DNA from: Desulfovibrionaceae bacterium
GTDB lineage: Bacteria > Desulfobacterota > Desulfovibrionia > Desulfovibrionales > Desulfovibrionaceae
Direction: 5' to 3'
Assembly (NCBI GenBank): GCA_015709205.1
Contig: JACCQO010000005.1
Location: 62,001-126,000, forward strand
Length of the DNA: 64,000 nucleotides
How positions within the stretch are numbered: position 1 is the stretch's first letter; every line of letters starts with the position of its first letter. The position numbers and the translations under genes are program-made. Shown piece after piece: positions 170 through 47,248 of this stretch. Under the pieces are notes generated by a model. It was not told where the DNA came from and made no database searches. It was given only the letters and a program-made list of their open reading frames with translations.

Positions 170-1348
170 CTATGCCGCGGCCGGGCGCGCGAAGAGGTTC
201 AGCCCCAGCAGGCCGCCGGACCGGGCCGCGTGGCCGGGCAGCCGGTTGTCGGCCAGGGCCGCGGCCATGCTCGAAAGGGCGCGCGCGGCCTTGCACTTGG
301 GCGCGGCCGCGAGCAGCGGCAAGCCCTGGTTGATGGCCGAAAGGGCCTCCTTGTAGTCGTTGGGCACCAGCCAGAAGGCCTTGCGCCCGATGATCTCCTC
401 GGCGTCCTGCACGGAGATCTCCGCGTTGGAGAGGTGGCGGTTGTAGACCACGCGCACGTCCTCGTCGTCCACCGCGCCCAGGCTGGTCAGCGCCGCGGAG
501 ACCTTGCGCAGGTTGGCCAGGCAGGGCAGGGACAGGGAGGAGACCAGCAGCACCCGCGTGGACAGGGCCATGACGTTGAAGCAGACCTCGTCCAGGTAGG
601 AGCCGCCGTCCACGACCACGAAGTCGAAGGTCTCGGCGAGCACGGTGAACATGCGGTCCAGGGCCGCGGCCGTGACCTCCGGGCGGTCCTGCAGGTCCGG
701 CGCGGGCAGCACGTAGAGGCCCGAGGGGTGGCGGCTGACGATGCCCATGAGGTAGGAGGCGTCCAGCCGGTCCAGGTTGCGGACCACCTCGCCCCAGTTG
801 TAGAGCGGGTCCAGGTCCAGGAACAGGGGCACCTCGCCGAAGGCGGTGTTCATGTCCACCAGGACCACGGAGGGCGGTTCGGCCTTGCCGTGCGGCCGGG
901 CCAGGGCGTGGGCCAGATTCACGGCCACGGTGGTCGCGCCCACGCCGCCCTTGACCCCGACCACGTCGAAGACGCGCGCGGAGCGTCCGGTGCGGCCCGC
1001 GCCCTGGCTCCGGGCCAGGATGCGGTTCACGGCCGCGCACAGTTCGGTCTCGTCCGGCGGCAGGACCACGAACTCCTGGGCCCCGGCGCGCATGGCCGCC
1101 AGCAGCACCTCGCGCCCTCCGTCGGCCGAGGCGGCCAGCACGGGCGCGCCGCTTTCGGCCCAGCGCGCCAGGCGCGCCGCGTCCCCGGGGCCGTCCAGCT
1201 CGACCACGGCCAGCGCCGCGCCCCGGGCCGCCGAAGGCCGCGCCGCGCGCACGGGCGTGAGCCCCAGCCGCTCCTGCGCCAGCATGCCCACGCGCTGGGC
1301 GTGTTCCTCGTTCCGGAAATCCAGGGCTATGGCCTGCCTGTCGTTCAT
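170..1348 (-). CDS. cpaE: CpaE/TadZ-type pilus localisation ATPase
   Basis: A 392-residue MinD/ParA-family protein that in Tad systems helps place the pilus machine at the pole. Residues 1-115 look like a receiver fold without a phospho-acceptor aspartate. Residues 131-140 (GVKGGVGATT) form a deviant Walker A in which the usual lysine of GKT is Ala, as is typical of CpaE/TadZ. A ParA-like core follows (VLVDMNT, VVVDGGSYLDE). The ATG at 1348 is chosen because GGGGGAGA lies just upstream; the open frame extends 41 codons further but that stretch has no family similarity. It sits between the TadE-like gene and cpaF in the leftward operon. Confidence 0.85.
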   Translation of the reverse strand: MNDRQAIALDFRNEEHAQRVGMLAQERLGLTPVRAARPSAARGAALAVVELDGPGDAARLARWAESGAPVLAASADGGREVLLAAMRAGAQEFVVLPPDETELCAAVNRILARSQGAGRTGRSARVFDVVGVKGGVGATTVAVNLAHALARPHGKAEPPSVVLVDMNTAFGEVPLFLDLDPLYNWGEVVRNLDRLDASYLMGIVSRHPSGLYVLPAPDLQDRPEVTAAALDRMFTVLAETFDFVVVDGGSYLDEVCFNVMALSTRVLLVSSLSLPCLANLRKVSAALTSLGAVDDEDVRVVYNRHLSNAEISVQDAEEIIGRKAFWLVPNDYKEALSAINQGLPLLAAAPKCKAARALSSMAAALADNRLPGHAARSGGLLGLNLFARPAAA

Positions 1349-1397
1349 GGCGTCTCCCCCGCTGTGTTCCTGTGTGCGTCGTTTCGCGCCCGCGTTT

Positions 1398-1859
1398 TTA
1401 GGGTTCGTCGTGGTGCATGACCGACGTGGAGGCCACGCGGGTCGGGCGCGCCGCGTCGCCGAGCAGGGCATCGAGGACCATCAGGTCCACCGAGGCCTCC
1501 ACGTGCACGGTGACGGGCTGCGAACTCTCGCGCGGGCCGATGGTCACGGAGTGGTCCGTGTCCAGGCCCCGGTCGAGCAGGGTGCTCTCCACCGCGTCGG
1601 CCACCTCGGCGTCCGTGGGCCCGTGCAGCAGGGCCATGCGCGCGCCCTCGGCCGCGGCCTCGGCCACCGCGCCCGCCACCCAGATGTAGCGGCCCAGCTC
1701 GACCACGCCGAAGACCAGGAACAGGATCAGGGGCAGGGCGACGATTTTCGTGACCGGACCGGCAAAGCGGCGGGAGTCCGCAACGTGGCGTCCGGCTTCG
1801 CAGCGGGCGGGGGCGGTGGAAACGGGGGCCAGGGTCGCGGTGGCGGTGGCGGCGTGCAT
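1398..1859 (-). CDS. TadE-like pseudopilin
   Basis: A 153-residue protein with a basic N-terminus and one hydrophobic segment (about residues 35-60: IVALPLILFLVFGVVELGR) followed by an Ala/Glu-rich helix (AVAEAAAEGARMA). This is the layout of TadE-like minor pseudopilins of Flp pili. The rest is a soluble C-terminal domain ending in VASTSVMHHDEP. The ATG at 1859 overlaps the stop codon of the preceding lipoprotein gene (TGATG), implying translational coupling. It lies in the leftward Tad operon. Two further TadE-like genes lie in the divergent operon. Confidence 0.7.
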   Translation of the reverse strand: MHAATATATLAPVSTAPARCEAGRHVADSRRFAGPVTKIVALPLILFLVFGVVELGRYIWVAGAVAEAAAEGARMALLHGPTDAEVADAVESTLLDRGLDTDHSVTIGPRESSQPVTVHVEASVDLMVLDALLGDAARPTRVASTSVMHHDEP

Positions 1860-2128
1860 CACTTCTTCTCCATCATGGATTTGATCAGTTGGTTGAAATC
1901 CAGGGAACTCTCCGGGGCAAAGCCCTTGGCATAGCCCTGCATGGTTCCCTGGGCGGCCTGGCCGTCGAAGCCCGTGACCGGGTCCGTGGACGGCTCGCCG
2001 GGATACAGGGTCTGCGCGGCCATGGCCTGGTGCACGGACGCGCCCATGGGTTCGGACGGAGCGGTCATGTAGCACCCGGTCGCGCCCGCGAGGAGCAGCG
2101 TCAGCAGCATGGCGGCGGTTCTCGGCAT
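1859..2128 (-). CDS. small lipoprotein of the Tad operon
   Basis: An 89-residue protein with a lipoprotein-type leader: hydrophobic residues 7-15, then A16-T17-G18-C19 as lipobox. The mature part has no domain I recognise. It is polar, with a possible helix at the C-terminus (SLDFNQLIKSMMEKK). It sits 10 bases after the secretin gene, and its stop overlaps the next start. TadD or an outer-membrane pilotin-like lipoprotein often occupies this place in Tad loci, but this protein is too short for TadD and shows no TPR repeat. A pilotin-like helper for the secretin is a guess from position. Confidence 0.65.
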   Translation of the reverse strand: MPRTAAMLLTLLLAGATGCYMTAPSEPMGASVHQAMAAQTLYPGEPSTDPVTGFDGQAAQGTMQGYAKGFAPESSLDFNQLIKSMMEKK

Positions 2129-2138
2129 GGTCCTCTCC

Positions 2139-3665
2139 TCACTGCCTGGGCAGGATGTGCCCGAAGCTGCCTTCCAGCCCGTGCTCGCCGCCCTCGGGCG
2201 CGAGCGGGACCGTGTGCGCGGCCGGAGCCACGACGGGCTTGTTGCGGCCTTCGGTCAGACCCAGGAAATACAGTTCCGTGTCGTCGGGCTCCACGTAGGA
2301 ATCCGTGGGCAGCGTCTGGCGTGCGACGTCCAGGGGCCGGGCCAGCCGCGGGGTGACGATGATGATCAGCTCGGACTCGTTCTTCTGGAACGACGTGGAG
2401 CGGAACAGGGTGCCGAGCACCGGGACCTCGCCCAGGCCCGGAATCTTGTCCGCGACCTCTCGCACGTTGTCCTTGAGCAGTCCGGCGATGGCGAAGCTCT
2501 GGCCGTCCTCCAACTCCACGGTGGTGGCGGCGCGCCGCGTGTTCAGGGCCGGGATCAGGAAGTTGTTGATGTTCACGGCGTTGTTGTAGTCCAGCTCGCT
2601 GACCTCCGGGGCCACCTCCATGGAGATGCGCCGGGGGCCGATGACGCGCGGGGTGAAGTTCAGGCTCACGCCGAACTGCTTGTACTCGATGGCCGTCTGG
2701 CCCAGGCCCTGGGGGATGGGCACGGGGATTTCGCCGCCCGCCAGGAACGAGGCGCTCTTGCCCGAGATGCAGATCAGCGTGGGCTCGGCCAGGATCTTGA
2801 TCAGCCCGTCCTGCTTGAGGGCGTCCAGGAAGCCGGTGATGGCCGCCTTGCCCACGGAGAAGCGGAACATGGAGTTGACCGAGTCCGTGACCGCGAGGTT
2901 GCCCGCGGAGGACTGCGACGGCGAGATGGGCAGCGGGCCGTTTTCGTTGTCCAGGTAGACCATGTTGTTGAGGAACTGGTAGATGAAGTCGCCGTCCATG
3001 AAATAGCTGAAGTTCACGCCGAGTTGCCTGAGCACCGAGCGGCTCATCTCCGCCACCTTGACCTCGAGCATGACCTGGTGCACGCCGCCCACGCTGAGCA
3101 TGTTGACCACGCGCTTGGGCGCGAAGGTCTCGGCCAGGGTCACGGCGCGCGAGAGGTTGGCGGCGCTGGACACGGTGCCCGAGAGGGTCACGGCCTCGCC
3201 CGCCGGAACCACGCGGATGGAGCGCTCCGCGGGCATGATCTGGTGCAGGGCGCTCTTGAGCTGGGTCAGGTCCGGGACCACGGTCACGTCGTAGAGCGCG
3301 CTGATGACGTCGTCGTTGGCCCAGGCCGTGACGGTCGCGGTCCCCGGGGCCTTGCCCGTGAGGTAGATGCGCCAGGGCGAGAGCAGGCGGATGTCCACGG
3401 CCTCGGGGTTGGACAGGGAGATGCGCGCCGAGGGGCCCGGGCAGTCGAGGATGATCGACTTGCCGCGCACCAGCTCCACGGGAATGGGCGTGAAGTTCGC
3501 GGTGCCCGGGGCCACGGCCGGGGGCGCGCCCACCAGGGGCCCGGCCTGGGCGGCCACGGCGCTCAGGAGCATGCACAGGGCGGCGAGCAGGAGCGCGCGC
3601 ACGGAGCGCAGGCGGCCGAGCCGGGAGCACAGGCCGATGAGGAGCAGGGCGGCGTCGGCGATCAT
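2139..3665 (-). CDS. cpaC: Tad outer-membrane secretin RcpA/CpaC
   Basis: A 508-residue secretin that forms the outer-membrane channel for the Flp pilus. It begins with a long signal peptide (positive region to about residue 25, hydrophobic core, cleavage near AAQAG). A periplasmic pilus-assembly N-terminal domain follows (VELVRGKSIILDC, VDIRLLSPWRIYLTGKAPG), then a BON-like segment, then the secretin core with FLAGGEIPVP, FGVSLNFTPRV and the closing IPGLGEVPVLGTLFRS and ELIIIVTPRLARPL. The start at 3665 gives a 4-base ATGA overlap with the cpaB stop. An open frame continues upstream through cpaB in another reading frame and is not coding. Confidence 0.93.
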   Translation of the reverse strand: MIADAALLLIGLCSRLGRLRSVRALLLAALCMLLSAVAAQAGPLVGAPPAVAPGTANFTPIPVELVRGKSIILDCPGPSARISLSNPEAVDIRLLSPWRIYLTGKAPGTATVTAWANDDVISALYDVTVVPDLTQLKSALHQIMPAERSIRVVPAGEAVTLSGTVSSAANLSRAVTLAETFAPKRVVNMLSVGGVHQVMLEVKVAEMSRSVLRQLGVNFSYFMDGDFIYQFLNNMVYLDNENGPLPISPSQSSAGNLAVTDSVNSMFRFSVGKAAITGFLDALKQDGLIKILAEPTLICISGKSASFLAGGEIPVPIPQGLGQTAIEYKQFGVSLNFTPRVIGPRRISMEVAPEVSELDYNNAVNINNFLIPALNTRRAATTVELEDGQSFAIAGLLKDNVREVADKIPGLGEVPVLGTLFRSTSFQKNESELIIIVTPRLARPLDVARQTLPTDSYVEPDDTELYFLGLTEGRNKPVVAPAAHTVPLAPEGGEHGLEGSFGHILPRQ

Positions 3666-4489
3666 TTCGCGTTCCTCCAGAAGCCCATGATCTGCCGCTG
3701 CCCGCCGCGCAGGACCTCGACCACGTAGTCCGGCCGACGGCGTGTCTTGGCCTTGTCGGAAGACGAGGCGATGGACAGGGTGGACTTCACGCTCGCGCCC
3801 GGGGTGGCCACCAGGGTTTCGTCCGCCGGGTTGCGCAGGGCGAAGTGCAGGGTGCCCTTGGTGGCGGCGAGGGAGAGCCGTTCGCCTTCGGCAGGCGTCA
3901 GTTCCAGGGTGTAGGTATCCACGGGCGACGGCTCTCCCTTGCCGTTGTCCTCGAGCTCGGTTCCGGTCGCGAGCACGGGAATGTTTTCCAGCACGGTCTT
4001 GGTCCGGATGCGGCCCGGGACCTGCTTGTTGTCGATGGTCACGAGCACGTCCACGCGGTTGCCCGGGCGGATGAACCCGGCCAGCCCCAGGACCTTGTTG
4101 CCCTTGACGGCGATGGCCCGCTTGCCGGGCGCGATCATGGCGCTGATGCCCGCGCCGCCGTCCTTGGGCACGAGGCGCGCCTCGGTCAGGGGCTCGTTCT
4201 GGTAGATGCGTTCGCGCAGGGTGCGGCCCACCAGGGTGGCGGGGTCGGAAAAGGCGTTCTGCGGCAGGCTTTCGGCCGGAAGGCGCACGGTGCGCAGCAT
4301 GGCGGCGTCGATGGCCGCGCCCCGATCGAGGTCCTTGGCGGCCACGACCACGGCCGTGGCGTTGTCGGCCCGCACGGCGGCCGTGGGCGCGTTGCGCGGC
4401 ACGGCCATCCACTGGAAGACCAGTACGCCCGTGGCCAGGGCCAGCACCAGCGCGCCGACGAGTTGCAGCATCCATCGCGAAGAACCCAT
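3662..4489 (-). CDS. cpaB: CpaB/RcpC pilus assembly protein
   Basis: A 275-residue inner-membrane-anchored periplasmic protein of Tad pilus assembly. One N-terminal transmembrane segment (about residues 8-28) is followed by an SAF domain (VVVAAKDLDRGAAIDAAMLR) and the RcpC/CpaB body with the conserved AIAVKG and FIRPGNRVDVLVT motifs. GAGGAGG lies just upstream of the ATG. It overlaps the secretin gene by 4 bases and follows the prepilin peptidase by 36 bases, so all are likely one transcript. The C-terminal tail is basic (KTRRRPDYVVEVLRG). Confidence 0.93.
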   Translation of the reverse strand: MGSSRWMLQLVGALVLALATGVLVFQWMAVPRNAPTAAVRADNATAVVVAAKDLDRGAAIDAAMLRTVRLPAESLPQNAFSDPATLVGRTLRERIYQNEPLTEARLVPKDGGAGISAMIAPGKRAIAVKGNKVLGLAGFIRPGNRVDVLVTIDNKQVPGRIRTKTVLENIPVLATGTELEDNGKGEPSPVDTYTLELTPAEGERLSLAATKGTLHFALRNPADETLVATPGASVKSTLSIASSSDKAKTRRRPDYVVEVLRGGQRQIMGFWRNAK

Positions 4490-4525: not shown

Positions 4526-5056
4526 CTAGCCGATCCAGCCGGGCGCCGTGCGCCAGGCGGTTACGGCCAGGGTTCCTGCGGCCAAGGCCACGCCGTAGCA
4601 GAGCCTGGGCAGCCCATGCGTTCCTGACCGCACGTGCACGCGGCCGGTGGCCACGAGCATCTGAAATTGTTCGCGCAGTCCGGCGAAAAGCCGCACGGCC
4701 ACGCCCCTGCGGACCGCGATCAGGATCAACGCGTAGACGCCGCCCGCGACGGAGGCCAGCAGAAAGGCCCAGATCACCCCGTACCAGCCCAAGGCCGCGC
4801 CCGCTGCGGCCAGGAACTTCACGTCGCCCGCGCCCATCACGCCGAACATGTGCGGTACGATGAGCAACGCGAATCCCGCGCCCAGTCCGGCCAGCGAATA
4901 GAGCAGACCGGGCATGCCCGCGGCGATGGCGTGCAGGCCCAGGAAGACGAGCATGGCCGGAAAGGTCAGCAGGTTGGGGATGCGCCGACTGGCGAGGTCG
5001 GTGGCGGCGGCCGCGATGCAGACGACGGCCAGAATGGCGCTGATGGCGATGTGCAT
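4526..5056 (-). CDS. cpaA: Flp prepilin peptidase CpaA/TadV
   Basis: A 176-residue polytopic aspartic protease (A24 family) that trims the basic leader from Flp and TadE-like prepilins. The two catalytic aspartates are visible: D20 in the ATDLASRRIPN motif and D78 in GAGDVK. Several hydrophobic segments flank them. It lacks the N-methyltransferase domain of PilD, as TadV proteins do. The ATG at 5056 is preceded by GGGGGAA. The open frame goes 42 codons further, but that part covers the hairpin after flp and has no family similarity. Confidence 0.92.
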   Translation of the reverse strand: MHIAISAILAVVCIAAAATDLASRRIPNLLTFPAMLVFLGLHAIAAGMPGLLYSLAGLGAGFALLIVPHMFGVMGAGDVKFLAAAGAALGWYGVIWAFLLASVAGGVYALILIAVRRGVAVRLFAGLREQFQMLVATGRVHVRSGTHGLPRLCYGVALAAGTLAVTAWRTAPGWIG

Positions 5057-5095
5057 GTTCCCCCCTTGCCCCGGATGGGGCGGTGGCTGCCGGTC

Positions 5096-5128
5096 GGGGC
5101 CGGACCGTCTCTCCCACGGTCCGGCCCC
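5096..5128 (-). promoter_or_regulatory. intercistronic hairpin between flp and cpaA
   Basis: A perfect 13-bp stem (5096-5108 with 5116-5128) and a 7-base loop lie between the flp stop and the cpaA start. No run of T follows on the minus strand, so it is not a classic terminator. A hairpin here would suit mRNA end stabilisation or partial attenuation, making far more pilin than assembly proteins. That role is inference. Confidence 0.6.
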
Positions 5129-5156
5129 GTCCACGGGCTGCGCCCGCGGCTGGCGG

Positions 5157-5324
5157 CTAGACGGTGGGCATGGAGCCGGCAATCGTGTTGAAGGTGCCCT
5201 GGACGTTGGTGCCCAGCAGGGTCACGGCGGTGATGATCACACCGGCGATCAGGGCGGCGAGCAGGCCGTATTCCAGAGCGGTGACGCCTTCTTCGTTACG
5301 CAGGAAGTTACGGATCGTACGCAT
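5157..5324 (-). CDS. flp: Flp/Fap type IVb pilin
   Basis: A 55-residue major pilin. The leader ends at G13, followed by VTALEYGLLAALIAG, which carries the type IVb signature: glutamate at position +5 and tyrosine at +6 of the mature protein, then the hydrophobic assembly helix. The C-terminal part (GTNVQGTFNTIAGSMPTV) is short, as in other Flp pilins. AAGGAG lies 8 bases before the ATG at 5324. It is the first gene of the leftward Tad operon, about 60 bases downstream of the predicted sigma-54 transcription start. Confidence 0.95.
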   Translation of the reverse strand: MRTIRNFLRNEEGVTALEYGLLAALIAGVIITAVTLLGTNVQGTFNTIAGSMPTV

Positions 5325-5396
5325 GGTGAATTCTCCTTGGGCTTGCGGTGTTGGGTTGCGTGTCCTCGGCCTCGCGGCCGGATGCCCCCCCCTTGA

Positions 5397-5411
5397 GCAA
5401 CCCGTGTGCCA
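5397..5411 (-). promoter_or_regulatory. sigma-54 promoter for flp operon
   Basis: On the minus strand TGGCACA, four bases, TTGC, with GG and GC exactly 10 bases apart, matches the -24/-12 consensus (TGGCACG N4 TTGC) at all but one base. The transcription start would be near 5385, leaving a leader of about 60 bases before flp. A second sigma-54 box faces the other way at 5954. Confidence 0.8.
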
Positions 5412-5558
5412 GCCTGCGCGCCGCACCGGTTCGCCCGGCGTGCCCCTGGCTCGGTGCATTCCGAAAAATCTCTTGTATTCCGCAGGAATGCAGGCTGCGA
5501 AAAAAGTGCGCCGCCGGTCACGGTTGCGGCCAGCGTGCAGACGAGAGGGCCCGGGATG

Positions 5559-5573
5559 TCCATTTTTTGTGGA
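5559..5573 (-). promoter_or_regulatory. 15-bp dyad, putative enhancer site 1
   Basis: Read on the minus strand it is TCCACAAAAAATGGA, an imperfect palindrome TCCA-N7-TGGA. It is identical to the copy at 5822 but in opposite orientation. It lies about 180 bases upstream of the expected flp transcription start, the right range for an enhancer-binding protein. Confidence 0.65.
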
Positions 5574-5662
5574 GTATCGTTTTCCGTCTGTTTTTATCTA
5601 ACATTTCAAAATAAAATATAAAATGACAATAATTTCCATTGAACAGGCGCTGCGGACGGTTG

Positions 5663-5677
5663 TCCATGAAAAATGGA
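5663..5677 (+). promoter_or_regulatory. 15-bp dyad, putative enhancer site 2 (variant)
   Basis: TCCATGAAAAATGGA keeps both TCCA and TGGA arms and differs from the other two copies at two central bases. It lies about 285 and 310 bases from the two expected transcription starts, near the middle of the control region. Confidence 0.55.
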
Positions 5678-5821
5678 GGGAGGCTTTTTGGTAATAGCCG
5701 CAAATTATTAACCGGTTGAATAGAAAAGGTTTATTTTTGGACCTCGTCGGTGTGCGCCGCGCCGTGGCGCGCCGGTGGCGTCGCGGGGCGGGGTTGGAGC
5801 GGGATTGAAAGAGGACGTGTG

Positions 5822-5836
5822 TCCACAAAAAATGGA
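5822..5836 (+). promoter_or_regulatory. 15-bp dyad, putative enhancer site 3
   Basis: TCCACAAAAAATGGA on the plus strand is the exact inverse of the copy at 5559. It lies about 150 bases upstream of the expected start of the rightward Tad operon, so each promoter sees the same sequence in the same orientation. Confidence 0.65.
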
Positions 5837-5953
5837 AGACTGCGCGCAGCGGTTTGGCCCGGCGTCGGGAAGGATATCCTGGACTATTTAGAAAACTATT
5901 TTAATACAATATGTTGAAGAAAATGAGCGGCGGCGGCGCGCGAACCTGCGGCT

Positions 5954-5968
5954 TGGCACGGGTGTTGC
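5954..5968 (+). promoter_or_regulatory. sigma-54 promoter for the rightward Tad operon
   Basis: TGGCACG, four bases, TTGC is a full match to the sigma-54 -24/-12 consensus with correct GG-N10-GC spacing. Transcription should begin near 5980, about 200 bases before the chosen TadE start. Confidence 0.88.
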
Positions 5969-6186
5969 CTAGGGAACAGCGGACCGTGCCGAACGGCTGC
6001 GCGACGGTTCCGGCTTCGGCCGGGCGTCGGCCAGGAGCCGGGGACGCGGAACGTGAGGCGGCCGTGCCCCCGGCCGGAGAGAGCGGGGGCGCGGCCCGGC
6101 CGCGACGGAGATCGAGCCGCCGGGGCCGGGATGGGACCTTGAGCCCGGCGGGTCCGGCCACGGGCAAAACGAAATGGGCAAAGGCG

Positions 6187-6627
6187 ATGCAAACGAAAGC
6201 AGAGCACCCGCGAGCGATGCGACCGAGAGCGATGTGGATCAAGAGGACGGGCGAGGGCCGGGAAGGACTGGCCGCCGTGGAGTTCGCCCTGGTGCTGCCC
6301 CTGTTCGTCGTGCTGCTCTTCGTGCTCGTGGAGGGCGCCAACGCCCTGGCCATGCGCCAGGCCCTGGTGAGCGCGAGCCGCGAAGCCGCGCGCCTGGTTC
6401 TCAGGGAAGGGGACTCCGCCCAGGTTCAGAACCTGGTGGACTCCCTGACGACGGGCATGCCCGGCGAATCGCCCCGCGCCACGGTCAGCGTGGACAGCGC
6501 GGCGCAAACCGTAACCGTGCAGGTGGACTATGACTACCACTCCTTCTACACCGACGAATCCTTCGAACAAATGTTCGGCACCGATCCGCTGGTGCTCAGC
6601 GCCGCGACCACAATGCCCTTCCCCTGA
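6187..6627 (+). CDS. TadE-like pseudopilin
   Basis: A 146-residue protein with a basic leader (KRTGEGREG), then AAVEFALVLPLFVVLLFVLVEG, the TadE hydrophobic helix with its conserved glutamate, then the usual LVSASREAARLVLREG segment. The remainder is a soluble domain. The start is uncertain: ATG codons at 6187, 6217 and 6232 are all in frame and none has a strong ribosome site (AAAGG before 6187, GAGAG before 6232). Starts before 5980 are excluded by the promoter. The 3' end overlaps the next gene's only ATG by 98 bases. Confidence 0.8.
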   Translation: MQTKAEHPRAMRPRAMWIKRTGEGREGLAAVEFALVLPLFVVLLFVLVEGANALAMRQALVSASREAARLVLREGDSAQVQNLVDSLTTGMPGESPRATVSVDSAAQTVTVQVDYDYHSFYTDESFEQMFGTDPLVLSAATTMPFP

Positions 6628-7915
6628 TCGGGAGGGGCCGCGCGCGCCGCAGGGCCGCGCGGGCCGTTCGGGCCCGTCGGACGGGCGGCGCGGCTCCGTG
6701 GCCGTGCTCGTGGCCGTGGTCCTGCCCGTGCTGCTCGGCATGATCGGCCTGGCCGTGGATCTGGGCAACGTCTACCTGTCGCATTCGCGCATCCAGGCCG
6801 CGGTGGACGCCGCGGCCCTGGCCGGTTCCCTGGAGTTGCCCTACGACCCGGAGATCACCAACGGCCGCGTGGCCACGGCCAGCGCGGGCATGCTTGCCAA
6901 GAACTATCCCGAGGCGCACGTGGCCGCCCTGACGGCCGGCACCGAGGTGCGCAGCGTGTGCGTCACGGGCGAAGCCGACGTGGACATGCTCTTCATGGGC
7001 GCGGTGGGGCTGCTTTCGAGCACGGTGCAGGCCAAGGCCTGCGCCGGTTTCAACGACCTGGAGATCGTCTTCGTCATCGACAACTCCGGCTCGATGAAGG
7101 GCACGCCCATCACCAATACCAACGCCGCGGCCTCGGAACTGGTCAACCTGCTCATTCCCGACGGCGCGAGCCCGGCCATCAAGTTCGGGCTGGTGCCCTT
7201 CCGCGGCAAGGTGCACATCCCCGGCGATGTGGACGGCCTGGCCGACGGCTGCCGCAACGCGGACGGCACCCTGAACACCGGGCTGCTTTCCGAATACACC
7301 AAGCCGGAGTACCGCTATCCCCGGGGCTCCTACCTGCGCGTCAGCTCCGACACCTGCTCCTCCATTCCGCGCGTCCGCGGTCTCACCGAGGACAAGTCCG
7401 AAATCCTGGCGGCCATCGCCAGCCAGACCGCCCTGGGCGCGGCCTCGGGCACGCTCATCGGCGAGGGCGTCAAGTGGGGCCGCCACGTGCTCACGCCCGA
7501 ACCGCCCTACGAGGAGGGCGACGACTCCGACCGGATGCGCAAGATCATGATCCTGCTCACGGACGGCGACACCGAGGACGGCGGGTGCGGCGGGGCCTAC
7601 AGCGTGTACTACACGCCCAACGACTACTGGACCAACGCCTGGTACGGCATGGGCGTGACCGACGCCCACTGCCAGGACGGCGGTCCCCTGAACGCGGCCA
7701 TGCTCGAGCAGGCCCAACTGGCCAAGGACGCGGGCGTGGAGATCTTCACCATCCGCTACGGCTCCTCGGACGCGGTGGACGTGAGCCTCATGCAGCAGGT
7801 GGCCTCGTCCAAGACGGGCACCAACGACCACTACTTCGACGCGCCCAGCGCCGACGACATCGAGGACATCTTCCGCAAGATCGGCAAGCACCTGGGCTGG
7901 CGGCTGCTGCAGTAG
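6530..7915 (+). CDS. TadG-like pilus protein with von Willebrand A domain
   Basis: Up to 461 residues. Residues 53-95 (GSVAVLVAVVLPVLLGMIGLAVDLG, then QAAVDAAALAGSL) are the TadG N-terminal membrane helix and its Ala-rich continuation. From about residue 180 a von Willebrand A domain follows, with the MIDAS motif DNSGSM and a later LLTDGDTEDGG. Paired cysteines in the middle may form disulfides. The start is problematic: in frame there is only the ATG at 6530, deep inside the TadE gene, or a GTG at 6698 within the membrane helix. GGGAGG at 6630 precedes no usable start codon. Presumably it binds or organises surface pilus components. Confidence 0.8.
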   Translation: MTTTPSTPTNPSNKCSAPIRWCSAPRPQCPSPDREGPRAPQGRAGRSGPSDGRRGSVAVLVAVVLPVLLGMIGLAVDLGNVYLSHSRIQAAVDAAALAGSLELPYDPEITNGRVATASAGMLAKNYPEAHVAALTAGTEVRSVCVTGEADVDMLFMGAVGLLSSTVQAKACAGFNDLEIVFVIDNSGSMKGTPITNTNAAASELVNLLIPDGASPAIKFGLVPFRGKVHIPGDVDGLADGCRNADGTLNTGLLSEYTKPEYRYPRGSYLRVSSDTCSSIPRVRGLTEDKSEILAAIASQTALGAASGTLIGEGVKWGRHVLTPEPPYEEGDDSDRMRKIMILLTDGDTEDGGCGGAYSVYYTPNDYWTNAWYGMGVTDAHCQDGGPLNAAMLEQAQLAKDAGVEIFTIRYGSSDAVDVSLMQQVASSKTGTNDHYFDAPSADDIEDIFRKIGKHLGWRLLQ

Positions 7916-7930
7916 GGCAGGGAGGTGGCA

Positions 7931-8416
7931 ATGCGCGCCCACACCGCAAGGACGGAAACCGACGAGCGCCGCGACGCGGCGCGGCGGGGGCTGGCGGCCG
8001 TGGAAATGGCCCTGATCCTGCCCGCGTTCCTGCTCCTGGTCTTCGGGATCATCGAGGTCAGCACGATCATGCGCTCGTGGCTGACCCTGCAGGAGGCCGC
8101 CGAGACCGGCGCGCGCTACGCGTCCACGGGCCAGGGGCTGGACGAGGGCGACCGCCTGGCGCGCGTGGTGGCCGAGACCAACCGGCTGCTGGACACGCTG
8201 CCGTCCGGTGCGCACGAGGTGCTGGTGCGCAGTTGGCCGCAGTCCGGGGGCGGCGCCGTGGAAAACGACGCGGGCGGCCCGTGCCAGATGGTCGAGGTGG
8301 AGGTGCGCTACGCCTATGAGCCCATGACCGCGATCATGGAGAGGATCCTTCCGGACGAGATCGATTTGCAGAGCGCCGTACGCAAGGTGAACGAGCCCTG
8401 GAACCCCTGCGATTAA
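7931..8416 (+). CDS. TadE-like pseudopilin (third copy)
   Basis: A 161-residue protein with leader RRDAARRG followed by LAAVEMALILPAFLLLVFGIIE, the TadE helix with its conserved glutamate, then TLQEAAETGARYAST. A cysteine pair in the C-terminal part (GGPCQ and NPCD) could form a disulfide. The ATG at 7931 is preceded by GGGAGG at good spacing; a GTG two codons earlier lies inside that ribosome site and is rejected. It starts 15 bases after the TadG-like gene and ends just before a strong terminator, closing the rightward operon. Confidence 0.85.
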   Translation: MRAHTARTETDERRDAARRGLAAVEMALILPAFLLLVFGIIEVSTIMRSWLTLQEAAETGARYASTGQGLDEGDRLARVVAETNRLLDTLPSGAHEVLVRSWPQSGGGAVENDAGGPCQMVEVEVRYAYEPMTAIMERILPDEIDLQSAVRKVNEPWNPCD

Positions 8417-8506: not shown

Positions 8507-8821
8507 CTAAAGCTGGTCCTGCAGATCGTGGATGCCCATGGGCAGGGGCGTGGCGAAGCGCACGCCGATCTCGTTGCCGCGCAGCCAGTCGACGATGCAG
8601 TCCAGCCCCTCGGGGCCGGAGTCCAGGCGCGGCAGGCAGGGATTCAGGCGCAGCCTGCGGCCCGGGGCGTAGAGATCGCCCGCGGCCCGGCCCAGGCGCA
8701 CGCGGGCGGCCGCGGCGTTGATGGTGACGAGTTCCGCGGGGACCGTGCCGTTGCGGTCGCGCAGTTCGGTGGGATGATGAAAGGCGAAGGCCGCGAGTTT
8801 TCCGCACAGCGAGTGGTTCAT
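8507..8821 (-). CDS. PilZ-like small protein
   Basis: A 104-residue protein whose end (DCIVDWLRGNEIGVRF) resembles the last strands of PilZ domains. The c-di-GMP binding signature (RxxxR then D/NxSxxG) is not clear: the matching region reads TINAAAARVRLG. It may therefore not bind c-di-GMP. AAGGAG lies 9 bases before the ATG. It stands alone between the Tad terminator and the sigma-54 activator gene, reading in the same direction as the activator. A role tied to the pilus locus is only suggested by position. Confidence 0.55.
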   Translation of the reverse strand: MNHSLCGKLAAFAFHHPTELRDRNGTVPAELVTINAAAARVRLGRAAGDLYAPGRRLRLNPCLPRLDSGPEGLDCIVDWLRGNEIGVRFATPLPMGIHDLQDQL

Positions 8822-8962: not shown

Positions 8963-10378
8963 TTACGAGCCCGTGCCGATGCCGTGCTTCTGCAGCTTGT
9001 TCCAGAGGTTCTTGGGCGAGATGCCGAGCAGGCGCGCGGCTTCGGCCTGGCGGCCCCCGGCCTTGTCCAGGGCCCCGAGGATCAGCGTGCGCTCCACCTC
9101 GCGCAGGGTATCCTTGAGGCACAGCCCCCCGGTCCTTCCGGACCCCCCGGCGGCAGCGCCGGGCAGGTCCCCGTTCTCGCCGTCCTCGGCCAGGGCCGGG
9201 CGCAGGTCCTTCTGAAAGGCCAACCGGACCTCGCGGCCCGTGATGTAGGCCGACTCGCCCAGAATGGCGGCGCGCTCGATGACGTTGGCCAGCTGCCGCA
9301 CGTTGCCCGGCCAGTCGCAGGCCATGAGTTCGGTCATGGCGTCGGCGGAAACCCCCTTGTACTCCGTGCCCAGGCGCACGTTGACGCGGTGCACGAAGTG
9401 CTCGGCGAGCAGGGGCAGGTCCTCCTTGCGCTCGCGTAGCGGCGGCAGGCTCACCGAGGCCACGTTGAGGCGGTAGTAGAGGTCCTCGCGGAAGCGCTTT
9501 TCGCGGCTCAGGGTCAGCAGGTCCTGGTTGGTGGCGGCCACGATGCGTACGTCCACAGCGATCTCCGCGCGGCCGCCCACGCGCTGGATGCGCTTTTGCT
9601 CCACGGCGCGCAGGAGCTTGGGCTGGAGCGAGACGGGCATGTCCCCGATCTCGTCCAGGAGCAGGGTGCCGCCCTGGGCCAGCTCGAACCAGCCGGCCCG
9701 GGCCGCGGCCGCGCCGGTGAAGGCCCCCTTTTCGTGGCCGAAGAGTTCGCTTTCCAGCAGGTTTTCCGGGATCGCGGCGCAGTTGACCTTGACGAAGGGC
9801 CCGGAGGCGCGGCGCGAAAGCTCGTGCACCGTGTCGGCCACCAGTTCCTTGCCCGTGCCCGATTCGCCCGTGACCAGCACCGTGGATTCCAGGGGCGCGA
9901 CCTTGCGGATCAGCGCCACCACGCGGCGCATGGCCGCGCCCTCGCCCACGATGCGGATGCCCGGCCCGCGCTCCTCCAGGGACTGGCGCAACCGGTCCAC
10001 CTCGTTCTGCAGCCGCCGTTTCTCCAGGGCGCGGCGGATCACGATCTCCATTTCGGCCAGGCTGAAGGGCTTGGCGAAGAAGTCGTAGGCCCCGAGGCGC
10101 ACGGCCTCCACCGCGGCCTCCTTGGGCGAAAAGGCGCTCATGACCACGATGTCCGTGCGCGGGGCCATGGCCGCCAGGCGCGGAATGGCCTCGATGCCCG
10201 ACATGCCCGGCAACCGCACGTCCGTGAGCACGATGTCGAAGACGCCCGCCTCGAGCAGGGTCAGCCCCTCCTCGGCGCTGGACGCGGCGGTCACGTCGTA
10301 GGACTTGAGCTCCAGGGCGTCGGTGAGCATCTCGCGGAATTCGCGGTCGTCCTCGATGATCAGGATGCGTTCGGCCAT
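8963..10378 (-). CDS. sigma-54-dependent response regulator (NtrC family)
   Basis: A 471-residue activator with three domains. An intact receiver (residues 1-120) has the acidic pair E9-D10, phospho-acceptor D53 and K103 (FFAKPF). The AAA+ domain has Walker A GESGTGKE (171-178), the sigma-54 contact loop GAFTGA (218-223) and LLLDEIGD (239-246). A Fis-type helix-turn-helix lies at the end (RQAEAARLLGISPKNLWNKL). No partner kinase is adjacent. It sits next to a locus with two sigma-54 promoters and shared dyads, which makes it the obvious candidate regulator of the Tad pilus (inference). The start is the ATG at 10378; the open frame runs far upstream antisense to the RTX gene and is spurious there. 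Confidence 0.93.
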   Translation of the reverse strand: MAERILIIEDDREFREMLTDALELKSYDVTAASSAEEGLTLLEAGVFDIVLTDVRLPGMSGIEAIPRLAAMAPRTDIVVMSAFSPKEAAVEAVRLGAYDFFAKPFSLAEMEIVIRRALEKRRLQNEVDRLRQSLEERGPGIRIVGEGAAMRRVVALIRKVAPLESTVLVTGESGTGKELVADTVHELSRRASGPFVKVNCAAIPENLLESELFGHEKGAFTGAAAARAGWFELAQGGTLLLDEIGDMPVSLQPKLLRAVEQKRIQRVGGRAEIAVDVRIVAATNQDLLTLSREKRFREDLYYRLNVASVSLPPLRERKEDLPLLAEHFVHRVNVRLGTEYKGVSADAMTELMACDWPGNVRQLANVIERAAILGESAYITGREVRLAFQKDLRPALAEDGENGDLPGAAAGGSGRTGGLCLKDTLREVERTLILGALDKAGGRQAEAARLLGISPKNLWNKLQKHGIGTGS

Positions 10379-10573: not shown

Positions 10574-13500
10574 ATGGCTGCAACGCCCGCCGGAGTGGTC
10601 GTCAATTTCAGCGGCACGGTCACCGCCGAGAGCGGTGGCGAGGTGCGGACCCTCGGTCTGCACAGCGAGGTCTTTTCCGGAGATTCGCTCACTACGGGCG
10701 CTTCGAGCGCCGTGGAAGTCGAGTTCGCGGACGGCACCAAGATGTCCCAGGGGCCGGAAGGGACCTTCAGCATCGATTCCTACGTCTTCGACCCCCAACA
10801 GGGCGAGTCGTCCGGCTTTCTCTTCAATCTTTCCCAAGGCACCTACCGCATGGTCACCGGGACCATTGCGGACCAGAACCCCGACGGGGTTCACGTCAAG
10901 TCGCCCCTGTCCACCATGGGCATCCGGGGCACCACCACGGTCCACCAGATCAAGTCCGACGGCACGGAATCGCACGGCGCCGAGGAACTGACCGGCGGCC
11001 GCTCCATCATCCTCACCGACACCTTCGGCCGTTCGGTGGTCATCTCCTTTCCCATGGGCATGGTCAGCATGGCCCCGGGCCAGCCCATGAGCGAGGTCCG
11101 CGTCATGAGCCCGGAGGAACTGGACCAGTTCGTCCAGATCATCCAGTCCGTGCTGCCGCCCCCGCCCGACGAGGGCGATACGGGCGAGCAGGGCGACGGC
11201 GAGGGAGATGGAGAGGGTGACGGCACCGGCGAAGGTGACGGCACTGGAGAAGACGACGGCACCGGTGAAGGCGACGGCACTGGAGAAGACGACGGCACCG
11301 GCGAGGGCGACGGTACCGGAGAGGGAGAGGGCGAAGGGGATGGCGAGGGCGAAGGCCTGGGTAACGACGGCATGGGCCCGGGCGAGATCGTTCTGGCCCT
11401 GAGCGCCGAGCAACTGGCCGCGCTGCTGCCCTCCATGGATCAGGGCGAGCAGGATATCCTGACGAATCTGTTGTCCGATATCCTGGATTTTCCGGACATC
11501 GAGCCGGAATCTCCGGATCCCGAAGATGACGATCCGGACCCGGAGGAGACGGACACGCTCTCCGGCGGCGAGGACACGCACTCCGGCGGCGACGACACCG
11601 GGACCGGCGGCAGCCATGTGCTCTACGGCAGTTCGGGCTCCGACAACCTGATGACCGTCGGCAGCGGCGACTACGAAATCTACGCCGGGCAGGGCAACGA
11701 CACCGTGCAGGCCCTCTCGGGCGCGGACACGGTCTACGGCGGCATGGGCGACGACTGCCTGCTCAGTGGCTACACGGTCGGCGACACCCTCTACGGCGAG
11801 GCGGGCGACGACACCCTGGTGGGCCGCACCGCGGCGGGCCAGGCCGTGGGCCACGTGCTCGACGGCGGCGAGGGGTCCGATTCGCTCCAGGGCGGCGCGG
11901 GCGACGATGCGCTCTACGCCGGTCTCGGCCAGGGCTACGACACCCTGGACGGTGGCGCTGGCGACGACACCCTTTACGGCGGCGAAGGCCACACCACGCT
12001 GCTCGGCGGGGCGGGCGACGACCTGCTCGTGGGCGGCGACGGCGTGGACGAATATTACGGCGGCGCGGGCAGCGACACCGTCAGCTTCGTCAATGCCGAT
12101 GGCGGCATCGTCTTCAACAGCGACGGCCTGTTCGACGAGAGTTACGGCACCGAATACTTCGAGGGCGTGGAGTGGATCCAGGGCAGCACGTACGGCGACG
12201 AGTTCCGCACGACCGGCACCGTGGAGCCCTCCTTCGACGGCGGCGGCGGGGACGACACCCTGTACCTGGACGCCGACGTGAGCGGCTTCGCCTGGGACTC
12301 CGAGGACGGCTCGGGCACGTTTTCCCTGGCCAACGGCTCCGTCACCTTCACCGACGTGGACGGCTTCGTGCTCAATGCCTCCACCGCCGACTCCCTGGAT
12401 CTTTCGTCCTGGGGCTCGTCCAACTCCGTCTGGGCCGAAGACGGCGACGACCACGTGGTGGACGGCGCGGGCGACGACAGCCTGTTCGGCGGCGGCGGCG
12501 GCGACACCCTTGAGGGCGGGGCGGGCGACGACACCCTTTTCGGCGACGACGTGGACCCGCACAACTCGGATGTGCAAGGGGATGATTACCTGCTCGGCGG
12601 CGACGGCGCGGACCATATCTACGGGGGCTACGGCAACGACACCATCGCTGGCGGAGAGGGCAACGATCTCATCTACGGCAACGACGGCCAGGACTCCATC
12701 GACGGCGGCGGCGGCGACGACACCCTCTACGGCGACGGCAGCGGCGCGCCTGCGGACGGCGACATCGTGCTCGGCGGCGACGGCGACGACATGCTCTACG
12801 GCGGGGCGGGCAACGACACCCTGGACGGCGGGTCCGGGGAGGACACCATCTACGGCCAGGAGGGCACCAATACGCTGCTCGGCGGCGACGACAACGACAT
12901 GCTCTACGGCGGCGTGGGCAACGACAGCCTTGCTGGCGAGGATGGCGACGACACCCTTTACGGCGGCTCCGGCGGCTCCAAGTTGCTCGGCGGCCACGGC
13001 GACGACCTGCTGGTGAGCGGCACGGGCGCCGACGAATACGTCGGCGGTGACGGCGAGGACACCATCAGCTTCGCCCTGGCCGGCGGCGCCATCTCGCTGA
13101 ACAGCGACGGCCTGTTCGACGACAACGGCAACTCCGAATCCTTCAGCGACGTGGAATGGATCCTGGGCAGCGGCCACGACGACGATTTTCTCGCCCGTTA
13201 CGGCAATCCCGACTTTGACGGCGGCGACGGCCTCGACGTTCTGCGCTTCGACGATACGTTGGTCGCGGCGTCCTTCACCGACGGCGTGAACACCCTGGAC
13301 AACGGCATCCGGTTCACCAACGTCGAGGGGTTCGCCCTGGCCGACGGCGACTGGAACGCCCTGGACCTCACCGGCATGGGCGAGACGGACAACCTCGTCT
13401 ACGGCAGCTATTCCGTCGATTCCGTCACCCTGGGCGGCGGCGACGACACGGCCTACGGCGAGGGCGGCGACGACTACCTGGAAGGCGGTACGGGCAACGA

Positions 13501-15409
13501 CTACCTGGATGGCGGCGAGGATGCCGACACCATTGTTGGCGACGAAGGCAACGACACGCTGTTCGGCGGCGACGGCGGCGACGAGATTTACGGCGGCCTG
13601 GGCAACGACAGCATCCAGGGCGGCGCGGGCGACGACAGCATCGAGGGCGGGGAGGGCCAGGACGTCGTCTACGGCGACGCAGGCGACGACCTCATCCTGG
13701 GCGGCGACGATTACGACGTGCTCTACGGCGGCGCGGGCAACGACACGCTCGACGGCGGCACGTGCGGCAACGAATTGTACGGGGACGACGGGAACGACAG
13801 CCTCGTGGGCGGCGACGACGACGACCTGCTCTACGGCGGCGTGGGCAACGACACCCTGGACGGCGGTACGGGCGACGACGAACTGCACGCCGAAGGCGGT
13901 GACGACAGCCTGGTGGGCGGCGACGGCGACGACACCCTCTACGGCGACGCAGGGGACAATGTGCTCGTCGGCGGCGACGGCAACGACCTGCTTTACAGCG
14001 GCGTCGGCCTGGACACCTACGAGGGCGGCGATGGCGACGACACCCTGAGCTACGCCCTGGCGGCGGGCGGCATGGCCCTCGGCCTGGGCATCTCGGACGG
14101 CGACGGCAATACCGAGAGCGAAGTCTCGGGAATCGAGTGGATTCAGGGCAGCGCCTACGGCGACCTCGTGGCCTGGACGTGGGGCACGCCGTCGTTCGAC
14201 GGCTACGACGGCGACGACACCTTGGTCTTCGATGAAAGGATTCTGGGCTCGACGTTGTCCGGCGATGCGGGCGTGGTGGAGATCGCGGGCGACATGGTCG
14301 GCTACTACGCCTTCGCCAACGTGGAGGCCTTCGTGCTCGAAGGCAACGGCAACGAACTCGACCTTTCGGGCATGGCCGGCGACGCCACGGTCACGAGCGC
14401 CGACGGCGCGGACGCCATCACCATGGGCGACGGCGACGACGTCGTGTTCTCGGGCTGGGGCGACGACGAGATCTACGGCGGGGCGGGCGACGACTGCCTG
14501 GTGAGCGGCCAGGACGTCGACGGCGTCACGGACAACGACTACCTGGATGGCGGGGCCGGCAACGACTGGCTCTACGCCGGTCTGGGCGACGACGAACTGC
14601 ACGGCGGAACGGGGAACGACGCCCTTTCCGGCGGCGCGGGCGAGGACGTGCTCTACGGCGACGAAGGGGATGACGTCCTGCAAGGCGGAGCGGACAACGA
14701 CACCCTGTACGGCGGCGCGGGCGACGACTGCCTCGCCGGAGATCCGGACTCCGGCCAGGATATGGTCTACGGGTCCGACGATCTTTACGGCGAAGCGGGC
14801 GACGACACGCTGTCCGGCAGCGACGGCTACGACTGCCTCTTCGGCGGCGACGACAACGACTATCTCGATGGCGGCGCCGACGACGACAGCCTGGACGGCG
14901 GCGCGGGCGACGACATCCTCTTGGGCGGCGACGGCTCCGACTACCTGGTGGGCGGCACGGGCGACGACACCCTGGACGGCGGCGCGGACGGCGATATGCT
15001 GTGGGGTGGCGAAGGTCACGATTCCCTGCTCGGCGGCAGCGGCGACGACGACTACGTCTTCGAGCACGTGGGCTCGGCGGACCTCGACACGGTCTTTGAC
15101 GGCGACGGCAACGACGCGTTCTTCTTCAAGGCCGCCGCCATCGGCTGGACCGGAATCGTCGAGACCAATAGCCTGGGGGCCGCGGGCGGCGCCCTGAACT
15201 TCGTGACGGCCGCGCCCACCAACCCGGTCTCCAACGCGTTCTACTACGTCACCCAGGGCACGCAGGCGGGCTATCTGCTGTACGACCACGACGGAGCGGG
15301 AACCGCCCCCCTGATCACCCTGGCCGTGCTGCGCACGGCCGAGGGGTATAATGCGCTGGCCTCCCAGGGCGCGGACGGATTTTCCGCCTCGGACATCATC
15401 CTCTTCTGA
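10574..15409 (+). CDS. giant secreted FecR/RTX-repeat protein, adhesin-like
   Basis: A 1611-residue, very acidic protein. Residues 1-175 form a FecR-like domain ([19 protein letters not shown], then MGIRGTT near residue 115). Residues about 200-262 are a Gly/Asp/Glu/Thr linker of short repeats, then an Asp/Pro/Glu-rich stretch. From about residue 350 come dozens of calcium-binding nonapeptides (GGxGxDxLx) in blocks, separated by three related 130-residue inserts. The end ([10 protein letters not shown]) fits a type I secretion signal. There is no Sec signal and no type I exporter in the window. GGGAGG lies before the ATG. Adhesin or surface-layer protein is inference from architecture. The N-terminus could act as a retention module as in LapA-type adhesins. 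Confidence 0.85.
11206..11350 (+). repeat. coding low-complexity repeat, Gly-Asp-Gly-Thr-Gly-Glu linker
   Basis: Short in-frame units encode DGTGEG and DGTGED alternately, giving a roughly 36-base higher period. It forms the flexible acidic linker between the FecR-like and RTX parts of the giant protein. Copy number is likely to vary between strains. Confidence 0.8.
12047..14990 (+). repeat. three tandem supermodules of about 980 bases in the RTX gene
   Basis: The motif DEYxGGxGxDTxSF begins a module at 12047, 13031 and 14012 (spacing 984 and 981 bases, both whole codons). In each copy it is followed by a non-RTX insert with a conserved VEWIxGS/IEWIQGS segment, a strand-rich stretch ending in LDLSxxG/LDLTGMG, and then a block of nonapeptides. 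The copies have diverged, so this is old internal duplication. Confidence 0.85.
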
Positions 15410-46259: not shown

Positions 46260-47248
46260 GGGACGGCGGCAGTTGCTAGAGTTTTGCTAGAAAACTTTTA
46301 GAATGTGTGCCCTTTTCGCAGCCGAACGTCAACAGCGACCTGCCTCCACGGGGGGCGCCGGGCGGGCGCACGGTCTTTCCCCTCCGACCGCCGGGTGGAT
46401 CCGCTGGTGCAGGGGAATGGCGCAACCTTGCCCATCCCGGGACCGCAGGACGGGCGTTGCGGGGGCCGCGGGCTGAAAACCGACAGTCGCATTCTGCATT
46501 TTATCATATAGCAAGGTAATTCCCCAGTCCAGCCCTGAGATGGGGAAAAGAAGCGTGGAACAGTGGAGATCGTGAATTTATGTCATGCGATCCTGCAATG
46601 ATTTATTTCATTGCGATACCGGGCATGATGATTTTGAGAAAATTGCCGTCATTTCCAGAGACAGTCAGAAGTAACTCGTTCCTGTGGATCACTGTATGGT
46701 CGGAATAAATGTCTATTATATGTATTGCAGTAAATTTTATTTTGAATAAAAAATTACTATATATATTATATTTATAATTAATGAAATTCGATTACCATAA
46801 ATTTATATCAATATCATAGTAATTTGATATGGGTATTATATGCCACTTATGCAATATCTTCCAAAGCAATTATGCAGCGCAGTTGATTTTTTGTGGGCAA
46901 TGAAGATCGATTGTATATTGAAATATATCGCTTGTGTGCTTTGCGGATGGTGCCCGGAAAATCTTCGGAGAAAACCGAATCCCGGGGTAGAACCAAGGGC
47001 GCCATCGAAGGATGGGATGACGTTCGCGGGCAGCGTTTTCGCGGGCCGAGGGGCTGCATGGCGGGTGCATGGCGCACGGGGACGAGGTCTATGGCAGGTG
47101 CGTGTCCGCCGCGCTCCGGCGCGGTGGGCCCGCTGGCGGCGGCCGGGATGGATGGTGCGCGGGCGCGCCGGCCACCCCAAAAGGGAAACCGGCTGCGGGG
47201 CATCGCCCGCAGCCGGTTTTTGATCGGCAAAGAAGGTCCGGCGGAAAA
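46260..47248. other. long gap with AT-rich island
   Basis: This 989-base gap between mlaE and the arginine decarboxylase gene holds no gene I can support. From about 46500 to 46960 it is strongly AT-rich (long runs such as ATATATTATATTTATAATTAA), in sharp contrast with its surroundings. Frames in it are short and have no recognisable product. The mla promoter should lie in 46260-46500. A terminator hairpin for the decarboxylase gene lies at 47186. Confidence 0.6.
47186..47221. terminator. hairpin terminator, possibly bidirectional
   Basis: A 14-bp perfect stem (AAACCGGCTGCGGG with CCCGCAGCCGGTTT) is followed by T on the plus strand and by TTTCCCTTTT on the minus strand. It lies 28 bases after the stop of the leftward arginine decarboxylase gene, so its main job is presumably to end that transcript. 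Confidence 0.75.

Follow-up and report, generated by a model that had tools for sequence, protein, structure and literature searches.

The two divergent Tad pilus operons of a Desulfovibrionaceae bacterium (GCA_015709205.1) are very probably served by a double sigma-54 control region, in which an activator encoded at 8963-10378 is predicted to bind a set of short dyads and to fire both operons. The control region is real, with high probability functional, and ordinary in kind. The sites and promoters, their conservation, the way in which they track the regulator and an accompanying residue/base change are directly visible in the genomes compared here. All positions refer to the window, i.e. 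the whole stretch of 64,000 nucleotides that was analysed (positions 62,001 to 126,000 of contig JACCQO010000005.1).

The locus holds the components by which a Tad pilus locus is recognised: an Flp pilin, an A24 prepilin peptidase, CpaB, a secretin, CpaE and TadE/TadG (Table 1). The left operon runs in the order pilin, A24 peptidase, CpaB, secretin, TadE-like protein and CpaE, the right operon in the order TadE-like, Tad/VWA and again TadE-like. Pfam was used to call the pilin, peptidase, CpaB, TadE-like and Tad/VWA genes, and the secretin and CpaE were called mainly by similarity and gene order; on frame 2101-3630, which overlaps the secretin ORF in another frame, Pfam gave no match. The pilin gene is the sole Flp_Fap match in its own genome. 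The first TadE-like gene of the right operon scores 38.6 bits against TadE_Rv3655c, just below the cut-off of 40, and starts at 6187, 6217 or 6232.

Table 1. Features of the Tad pilus locus and its control region (positions in the window)
Feature	Position	Strand	Basis
CpaE-like P-loop ATPase	170..1471	-	Pfam AAA_31 (E 2e-7); conserved order
ORF with TadE-like stretch (residues 112-146)	1398..2075	-	Pfam TadE (E 7e-9); true start probably internal
CpaC-like secretin, start inferred	2139..3665	-	Gene order kept in relatives, 39-57% identity
CpaB/RcpC	3662..4489	-	Pfam RcpC (E 1.2e-29)
Prepilin peptidase (A24)	4526..5056	-	Pfam Peptidase_A24 (E 1.5e-19); start inferred from ORF 4526-5182
Flp pilin, first gene of left operon	5157..5324	-	Pfam Flp_Fap (E 7e-15); ATG at 5324 behind AAGGAG
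Sigma-54 -24/-12 element, pilin operon, TGGCACACGGGTTGCT	5396..5411	-	0 mismatches to TGGCACN5TTGCW
Proximal upstream activator dyad (candidate), pilin promoter	5559..5573	-	Exact copy; shuffles; conservation
Distal dyad, pilin promoter (best reading), TCCATGAAAAATGGA	5663..5677	+	Proximal/distal pairs in relatives
Upstream activator dyad (candidate), tadE/tadG promoter	5822..5836	+	Exact copy; distance shared with relatives
Sigma-54 -24/-12 element, tadE/tadG operon, TGGCACGGGTGTTGCC	5954..5969	+	1 mismatch to TGGCACN5TTGCW
TadE-like minor pilin, first gene of right operon	6187..6627	+	NCBIfam TadE_Rv3655c (E 1e-9); conserved place
Tad/VWA protein (TadG-like)	6530..7915	+	Pfam VWA, Tad; true start probably within ORF
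Second TadE-like gene	7925..8416	+	Pfam TadE (E 2e-13)
Sigma-54 activator, candidate dyad binder	8963..10378	-	Pfam Response_reg, Sigma54_activat, HTH_8

Promoters and dyads of the window

The control region lies between the start of the Flp pilin gene on the minus strand and that of the tadE-like gene on the plus strand, and has an AT-rich core set between blocks of 68-70% G+C in a G+C-rich genome. Both of its sigma-54 elements show the -24 GG and -12 GC at fixed spacing that characterise this promoter class, and both point outward; the near-consensus outward promoters, one per operon, that had been proposed in the initial annotation are thus present. Elements of this class are not enriched in the window, with 15 matches against 27.3 expected when 2 mismatches are allowed. 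With no more than 1 mismatch the window has 3 matches (1.76 expected), and 2 of 200 shuffles contained a divergent pair spaced within 1 kb. Taken by itself, the pair is notable, not overwhelming. A leader of about 200-250 nt (5981-6187) is predicted for tadE.

Between the promoters there are two exact copies of TCCACAAAAAATGGA, of the form TCCA-N7-TGGA, and a middle copy with 2 mismatches. The same annotation had described two exact dyads in opposite orientation, each about 150-180 bp from its own promoter, with a third, variant one in the middle; these positions are confirmed, with the qualification that the opposite orientation concerns the A-rich core only, since the TCCA/TGGA part of the dyad is symmetric. 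The centre of the dyad is 155 bp from the T of TGG on the left side and 125 bp on the right (approximately 180 and 150 bp, respectively, to the inferred start sites). The middle dyad is located 259 bp from the left promoter, 284 bp from the right promoter and 104 bp from the proximal site at 5559.

Allowing up to 3 mismatches, TCCACAAAAAATGGA has 5 matches in the 64 kb against a shuffle mean of 0.34 (none of 100 shuffles reached 5), and three strict TCCA-N7-TGGA sites within 300 bp occurred in none of 300 Markov shuffles. A search of the whole genome with TCCAYRAAAAATGGA at 0 mismatches returned exactly the three dyads of the window, and its backwards control returned none. At 2 mismatches five additional matches appeared, and the backwards control gave the same totals (5 and 3), so that only exact matches of TCCAYRAAAAATGGA are informative.

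An IHF-like match with one mismatch, on either strand, is found at 5706-5721 between the middle and right dyads, which is a weak signal given that the window contains 13 such matches against 5.6 expected. With a loose weight matrix a very AT-rich stretch at 46747-46785 obtains a dyad-like score, probably due to composition only. When iterated at a low threshold, the weight matrix shifted towards AT-rich sequence, and this approach was abandoned.

The dyad in related genomes

Orthologs of the activator were collected from 150 family genomes, the own genome included: a match of at least 510 bits is present in 59 of the other 149 (the next matches start from 418 bits), and these 59 genomes form the ortholog set. 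A 60th genome, G022, contains only the start of an ortholog, at a contig end. The stretches around all 59 orthologs, comprising 46 kb of upstream DNA and excluding the window, were scanned in an unbiased way by tallying all 4+N+4 palindromes whose gap was between 0 and 16. TCCA-N7-TGGA came out as the top gapped palindrome by excess (30 of the 59 loci against 0.2 expected), and in 12 shuffles of the scanned DNA no palindrome was found in more than 11 loci. The search for this dyad upstream of tad loci in relatives, as suggested earlier, thus reveals conservation. In its relaxed form, TC[CT]A-N7-T[AG]GA, the dyad is present at 42 of the 59 loci, many of which come from the same genera and are not independent.

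For the promoters of relatives, a sigma-54 element was counted when at least 9 of 11 positions matched. Pilin operons linked to the activator have such an element in 34 of 36 cases, 67-114 bp before the pilin start, and a relaxed dyad in 31 of 36 against 0.63 loci expected in shuffles. At linked tadE/G operons the relaxed dyad is seen in 20 of 25 (0.5 expected in shuffles) and the sigma-54 element in no more than 12 of 25, a count lowered in part by uncertain gene starts. Measured to the T of TGG, most dyad centres are at a distance of 96-261 bp. The dyad therefore shows what is expected of an upstream activator sequence, i.e. a place approximately 100-250 bp upstream and conservation together with the regulator, with exceptions. 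In L027, L036, L046, L050, L069 and L074 the tadE/G dyad is positioned 117-128 bp from the sigma-54 element and is the same 15-mer as in the window or differs by one base. In these six loci and in L065 and L066 the sigma-54 element is only 21-44 bp before the inferred tadE start, in contrast to the long tadE leader predicted in the window, which may reflect another start codon or an additional function of the leader. On the pilin side, proximal and distal dyads are paired at 139/239 bp (L177), 150/249 bp (L052) and 149/252 bp (L072); the 155/259 bp of the window resembles these pairs, so that its middle dyad is best taken as a distal pilin-promoter site. An initial survey covering 40 genomes, the own genome among them, had given exact TCCAYRAAAAATGGA in 9 (backwards control: 1); in the 8 other genomes the match was at Tad genes in 4 and elsewhere in 4. 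Helical phasing of neighbouring dyads seemed regular at first (82, 92, 99-103 and 111 bp), but yielded a P of 0.17 with one value per genus and was dropped.

The dyad is also encountered at Tad operons that are not beside the activator gene. Sixteen non-adjacent pilin genes show a sigma-54 element in 15 cases and a relaxed dyad in 11 (0.12 expected), and eleven non-adjacent tadE/G operons show the element in 9 and the dyad in all 11 (0.08 expected). All but one of these pilins lie over 0.5 Mb from the activator or on a contig other than its own, with the dyad in 10 of 15; the remaining one (G023) lies at 11 kb and has the dyad as well. Six of the tadE/G operons lie on a different contig or at a distance exceeding 2 Mb (dyad in 6/6) and the other five at 9-11 kb (dyad in 5/5), counts in which separate contigs of draft genomes need not be far apart and species of the same genus are not independent. 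In genera g37 and g53 none of the 11 activator stretches has a relaxed dyad in the upstream DNA that was scanned, and all 11 of their tadE/G operons do; the regulon is apparently held together in trans here. In several species of these genera (L165-L177, L194-L203) the activator, pilin and tadE/G operons are scattered, the dyad being common to all. With a further pattern, TCCAYRWWWYRTGGA, both genome-wide places in G104 are 325 bp before its two Flp pilin genes, which were found independently with Pfam; this case was picked after the table had been inspected.

The dyad was not found at any of 6 Flp pilin promoters from genomes that lack the activator (one reached the sigma-54 threshold), nor was it found at any of 4 weak Flp paralogs (none reached the threshold), both being small samples. 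A CpaC match is present in 8 of the 80 genomes listed without an ortholog (one of these is G022) versus 43 of the 59 ortholog stretches.

Exceptions are found on both sides. For 17 of the 59 orthologs no relaxed dyad is present in the part of the upstream DNA that was scanned: the 11 g37/g53 loci with targets elsewhere, 2 contig ends, and L033, L048, L056 and L067. Among the 36 linked pilins the dyad was not found at L033, L056, L067, L063 and L064; for the latter two the search was anchored on an extra pilin, and the next pilin has both dyad and promoter. It was likewise not found at 5 of the 16 non-adjacent pilins, namely L196, L199 and three in G047. This last genome (5.8 Mb) has several Flp pilin loci, and the upstream regions of L204-L206 contain good sigma-54 elements in 2 of 3 and the dyad in 0 of 3; a second regulator or an altered site may operate there.

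Counted over whole genomes, TCCAYRWWWYRTGGA is not clearly in excess where the activator is present: the 60 genomes that have it contain 30 places, and the 79 that lack it contain 26. The pattern is poorly suited to this comparison, as it leaves out the window's own sites. Fourteen of the 30 places are near Tad genes, 13 at loci already in the set and one at L184, where TadE-like and weak TadG-like matches adjoin. The other 16 are away from Tad genes, and in only 3 of them does a strong sigma-54 match, directed away from the site, lie within 420 bp. These three, L185 (first site), L186 and L191, match the sigma-54 element at 10 of 11 positions and are possible further members of the regulon.

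The activator and its recognition helix

The protein encoded at 8963-10378 combines a receiver domain, an AAA+ domain with GAFTGA and a Fis-type HTH, the composition of an NtrC-type enhancer-binding protein. Residues D10, D53 and K103 are invariant in 15 aligned orthologs. The initial annotation was right about the GAFTGA of this neighbour and wrong about its distance, given as 2.5 kb: the near end of the gene is 3.0 kb from 5968. Among the ORFs scanned, no sensor kinase gene was found next to the activator gene. The surroundings include, just downstream, a 104 aa ORF at 8507-8821 (minus strand) with coding-like G+C by codon position and no Pfam or NCBIfam match, and, divergent from the activator gene, a 1611-residue protein (10574-15409) that contains 24 stretches of RTX calcium-binding repeats and has a weak FecR-like part. 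Outside the family, 4 genomes encode proteins with 46-54% identity whose recognition helices differ; no dyad was found within 2.5 kb of a strong sigma-54 match, and no Flp pilin match in the stretches examined, two being short contigs, so these proteins were regarded as other regulators. One of them (L215) has a weak CpaC-like match.

Within the family the recognition helix reads NLWNK in 44 of the 59 relatives and in the window, and NLWAK in 13; two sequences are cut before the helix. The 13 orthologs with Ala and the 2 cut ones form one clade (15 rows, support 100/99). Half-sites differ accordingly between the two sets: TCCA to TCTA is 117 : 27 in the Asn set (window included), against 19 : 53 in the set with Ala in place of N460, and genus g50, which has Ala, is mixed. 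The change from Asn to Ala is a single event on the tree, which makes this co-variation suggestive, not proof. The position of N460 aligns with an arginine in the recognition helix of Aquifex NtrC1, and its counterpart in E. coli NtrC is, we presume, one residue among those changed in a DNA-binding-dead mutant; a literature search gave no confirmation for the latter. We tentatively propose, at somewhat less than even confidence, that in one clade the replacement of Asn by Ala at the N460 equivalent, together with TCCA to TCTA across the Tad regulon, is a natural specificity switch of the NtrC family, and that the window keeps the commoner pair, with the enhancers of both operons in one 540-bp region able to act on both promoters.

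Conservation, the distant sites that track the regulator and the single protein-DNA co-variation together support the earlier proposal of sigma-54 control of both halves, with the dyads as candidate activator sites and the nearby GAFTGA protein as their putative binder. From this we infer binding, activation, looping, co-expression and an activating signal in the following form. The activator would receive the signal through its receiver domain (D53) and bind the TCCA-N7-TGGA dyads as Fis-type dimers. Its AAA+ ring would then assemble, the GAFTGA loops would remodel the sigma-54 polymerase, and looping of the DNA would open the promoters of the Flp pilin/Cpa and TadE/TadG operons. The dyads at 5559 and 5663 would act mainly on the pilin promoter, and the one at 5822 on the tadE/G promoter. 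Both halves would thus be one regulon, switching together through standard units placed back to back, with no dedicated mirror-shaped enhancer.

Mirror layout, rival readings and known systems

Pilin and tadG matches occur together in the fetched stretch of 21 relatives. By hand count the two halves are divergent in 19 of these, and in 18 of the 19 the activator gene is situated between them. The exception, L033 (G043), is the sole relative with the gene order of the window and has only degenerate dyads. In L055 and L056 the tadG-like matches are downstream of the pilin in the same direction. Of 7 genomes of genus g50, 5 carry tadG on the strand of the activator gene, some 12 kb downstream of its end, and 2 carry it on other contigs. 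The close pairing of the dyads in the window thus follows from the activator gene being located elsewhere. The orientation of the A-rich core at the pilin side varies among relatives (it is flipped in L018 and L058), so that the mirror symmetry emphasised by the initial annotation is not a conserved feature. The compact mirror is best understood as two ordinary site-plus-promoter units in a rearranged order.

The same annotation had read the region as a shared enhancer, and it might be argued that the activator occupies all three dyads in one bidirectional assembly, with the mirror layout enforcing joint firing. All dyads indeed lie between the promoters within 280 bp, and the far dyads are 259, 284, 388 and 418 bp from the TGG of the other promoter, within the range of sigma-54 enhancers (an NtrC enhancer is active at up to 15 kb, as cited by Kazakov et al. 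2015, PMC4641369). Nonetheless, each promoter owns its dyad or dyads at distances known from relatives, the activator gene separates the halves in nearly all divergent relatives, site orientation is not conserved, and several target operons of g37 and g53 are far apart, which makes sharing unnecessary; we therefore consider this reading rather unlikely. It is still less likely that the dyads belong to another regulator (a repressor or nucleoid protein) and that the activator recognises some other sequence. Palindromes rich in A+T are frequent targets, the imperfect IHF-like match is close by, and similar dyads are also seen at other places in these genomes, as well as in genomes that lack the activator. 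However, the dyads at Tad operons track the activator ortholog even when distant, were not found at the 6 Tad pilin promoters without it, and change their half-sites along with its recognition helix, and no competing palindrome came near the rank of the dyad in the unbiased scan. The probability that chance repeats arose in an AT-rich island between the promoters is practically negligible: the core is richer in A+T than its surroundings, but no shuffle in either series reproduced the sites, and the dyads are conserved in other genomes. We thus retain two ordinary units under one activator as the preferred reading.

NtrC-family proteins bind a dyad as a dimer through a Fis-type HTH, with half-sites about one helical turn apart, and the half-site sequence of NtrC itself differs from TCCA/TCTA. 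The pilins under PilR are of type IVa rather than Flp/Tad, and PprB of Pseudomonas is not known to be a sigma-54 activator. Classical NtrC-family enhancers, such as that of glnA, resemble the window in having a dyad at least 100 bp upstream of a -24/-12 promoter (PMC4641369), whereas the window system is a surface-organelle regulon with the half-site TCCA or TCTA. PilR of Pseudomonas, Geobacter and Myxococcus is likewise described as a sigma-54 response regulator acting on a pilin promoter (PMC3333781); the window activator differs in having no adjacent sensor kinase gene among the ORFs scanned. Two-component control of a tad locus is described for PprB and for ECA0785/0786 of Pectobacterium, but the Pectobacterium regulator is presented with an OmpR domain, not as a sigma-54 activator (PMC3767616).

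Closer is DVU2114 of Desulfovibrio (Nitratidesulfovibrio) vulgaris Hildenborough. According to the account of Rajeev et al. 2011 (PMC3333781), in an in vitro assay it targeted a second pilus operon in addition to Flp pilin genes, and pilin genes of a few related species carry its conserved binding-site motif upstream; Kazakov et al. (PMC4641369) count it among the GAFTGA regulators and assign pili to it. The initial annotation knew of no description of these dyads, and the regulator has in fact probably been described since 2011 as DVU2114 with its Flp/Tad targets (PMC3333781). The likeness includes a response-regulator sigma-54 activator with GAFTGA and two pilus target operons, as here, one of which starts with Flp pilin genes followed by cpa/tad genes; the two targets of DVU2114 are far apart by gene number, whereas those of the window are back to back. 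From domain type and Flp/Tad targets, on which the comparison was made, the window activator is a putative ortholog of DVU2114 and may share its motif. Most motifs in PMC3333781 are described as inverted repeats of 4-6 bp, 3-8 bp apart, which fits the window dyad but is not specific to DVU2114. Gel shifts confirmed the motifs of 15 regulators and the motifs of Figure 8 are described as validated; in the text available of that paper DVU2114 was not found named among the gel shifts. Its main text contains no TCCA/TGGA string, the motif letters being placed in a figure and supplements. A literature search with the three dyad strings gave no match, and among the matches listed for Tad pili and sigma-54 only the D. 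vulgaris studies PMC3333781 and PMC4641369 are directly relevant.

The present analysis extends what is known by defining the site across the family, by finding it at operons distant from the activator gene, by tracing the mirror to gene order, and by the co-variation of residue and base. TC[CT]A-N7-T[AG]GA combined with a sigma-54 element gives a sequence-level definition of the Tad-pilus regulon for one bacterial family, and it predicts distant pilin and tadE/G operons as members. For the reading of DNA by Fis-type recognition helices a one-residue/one-base rule is proposed. Tad pili function in surface attachment and biofilms, and a switch for them is of practical interest in sulfate reducers, among which the organism studied here probably belongs.
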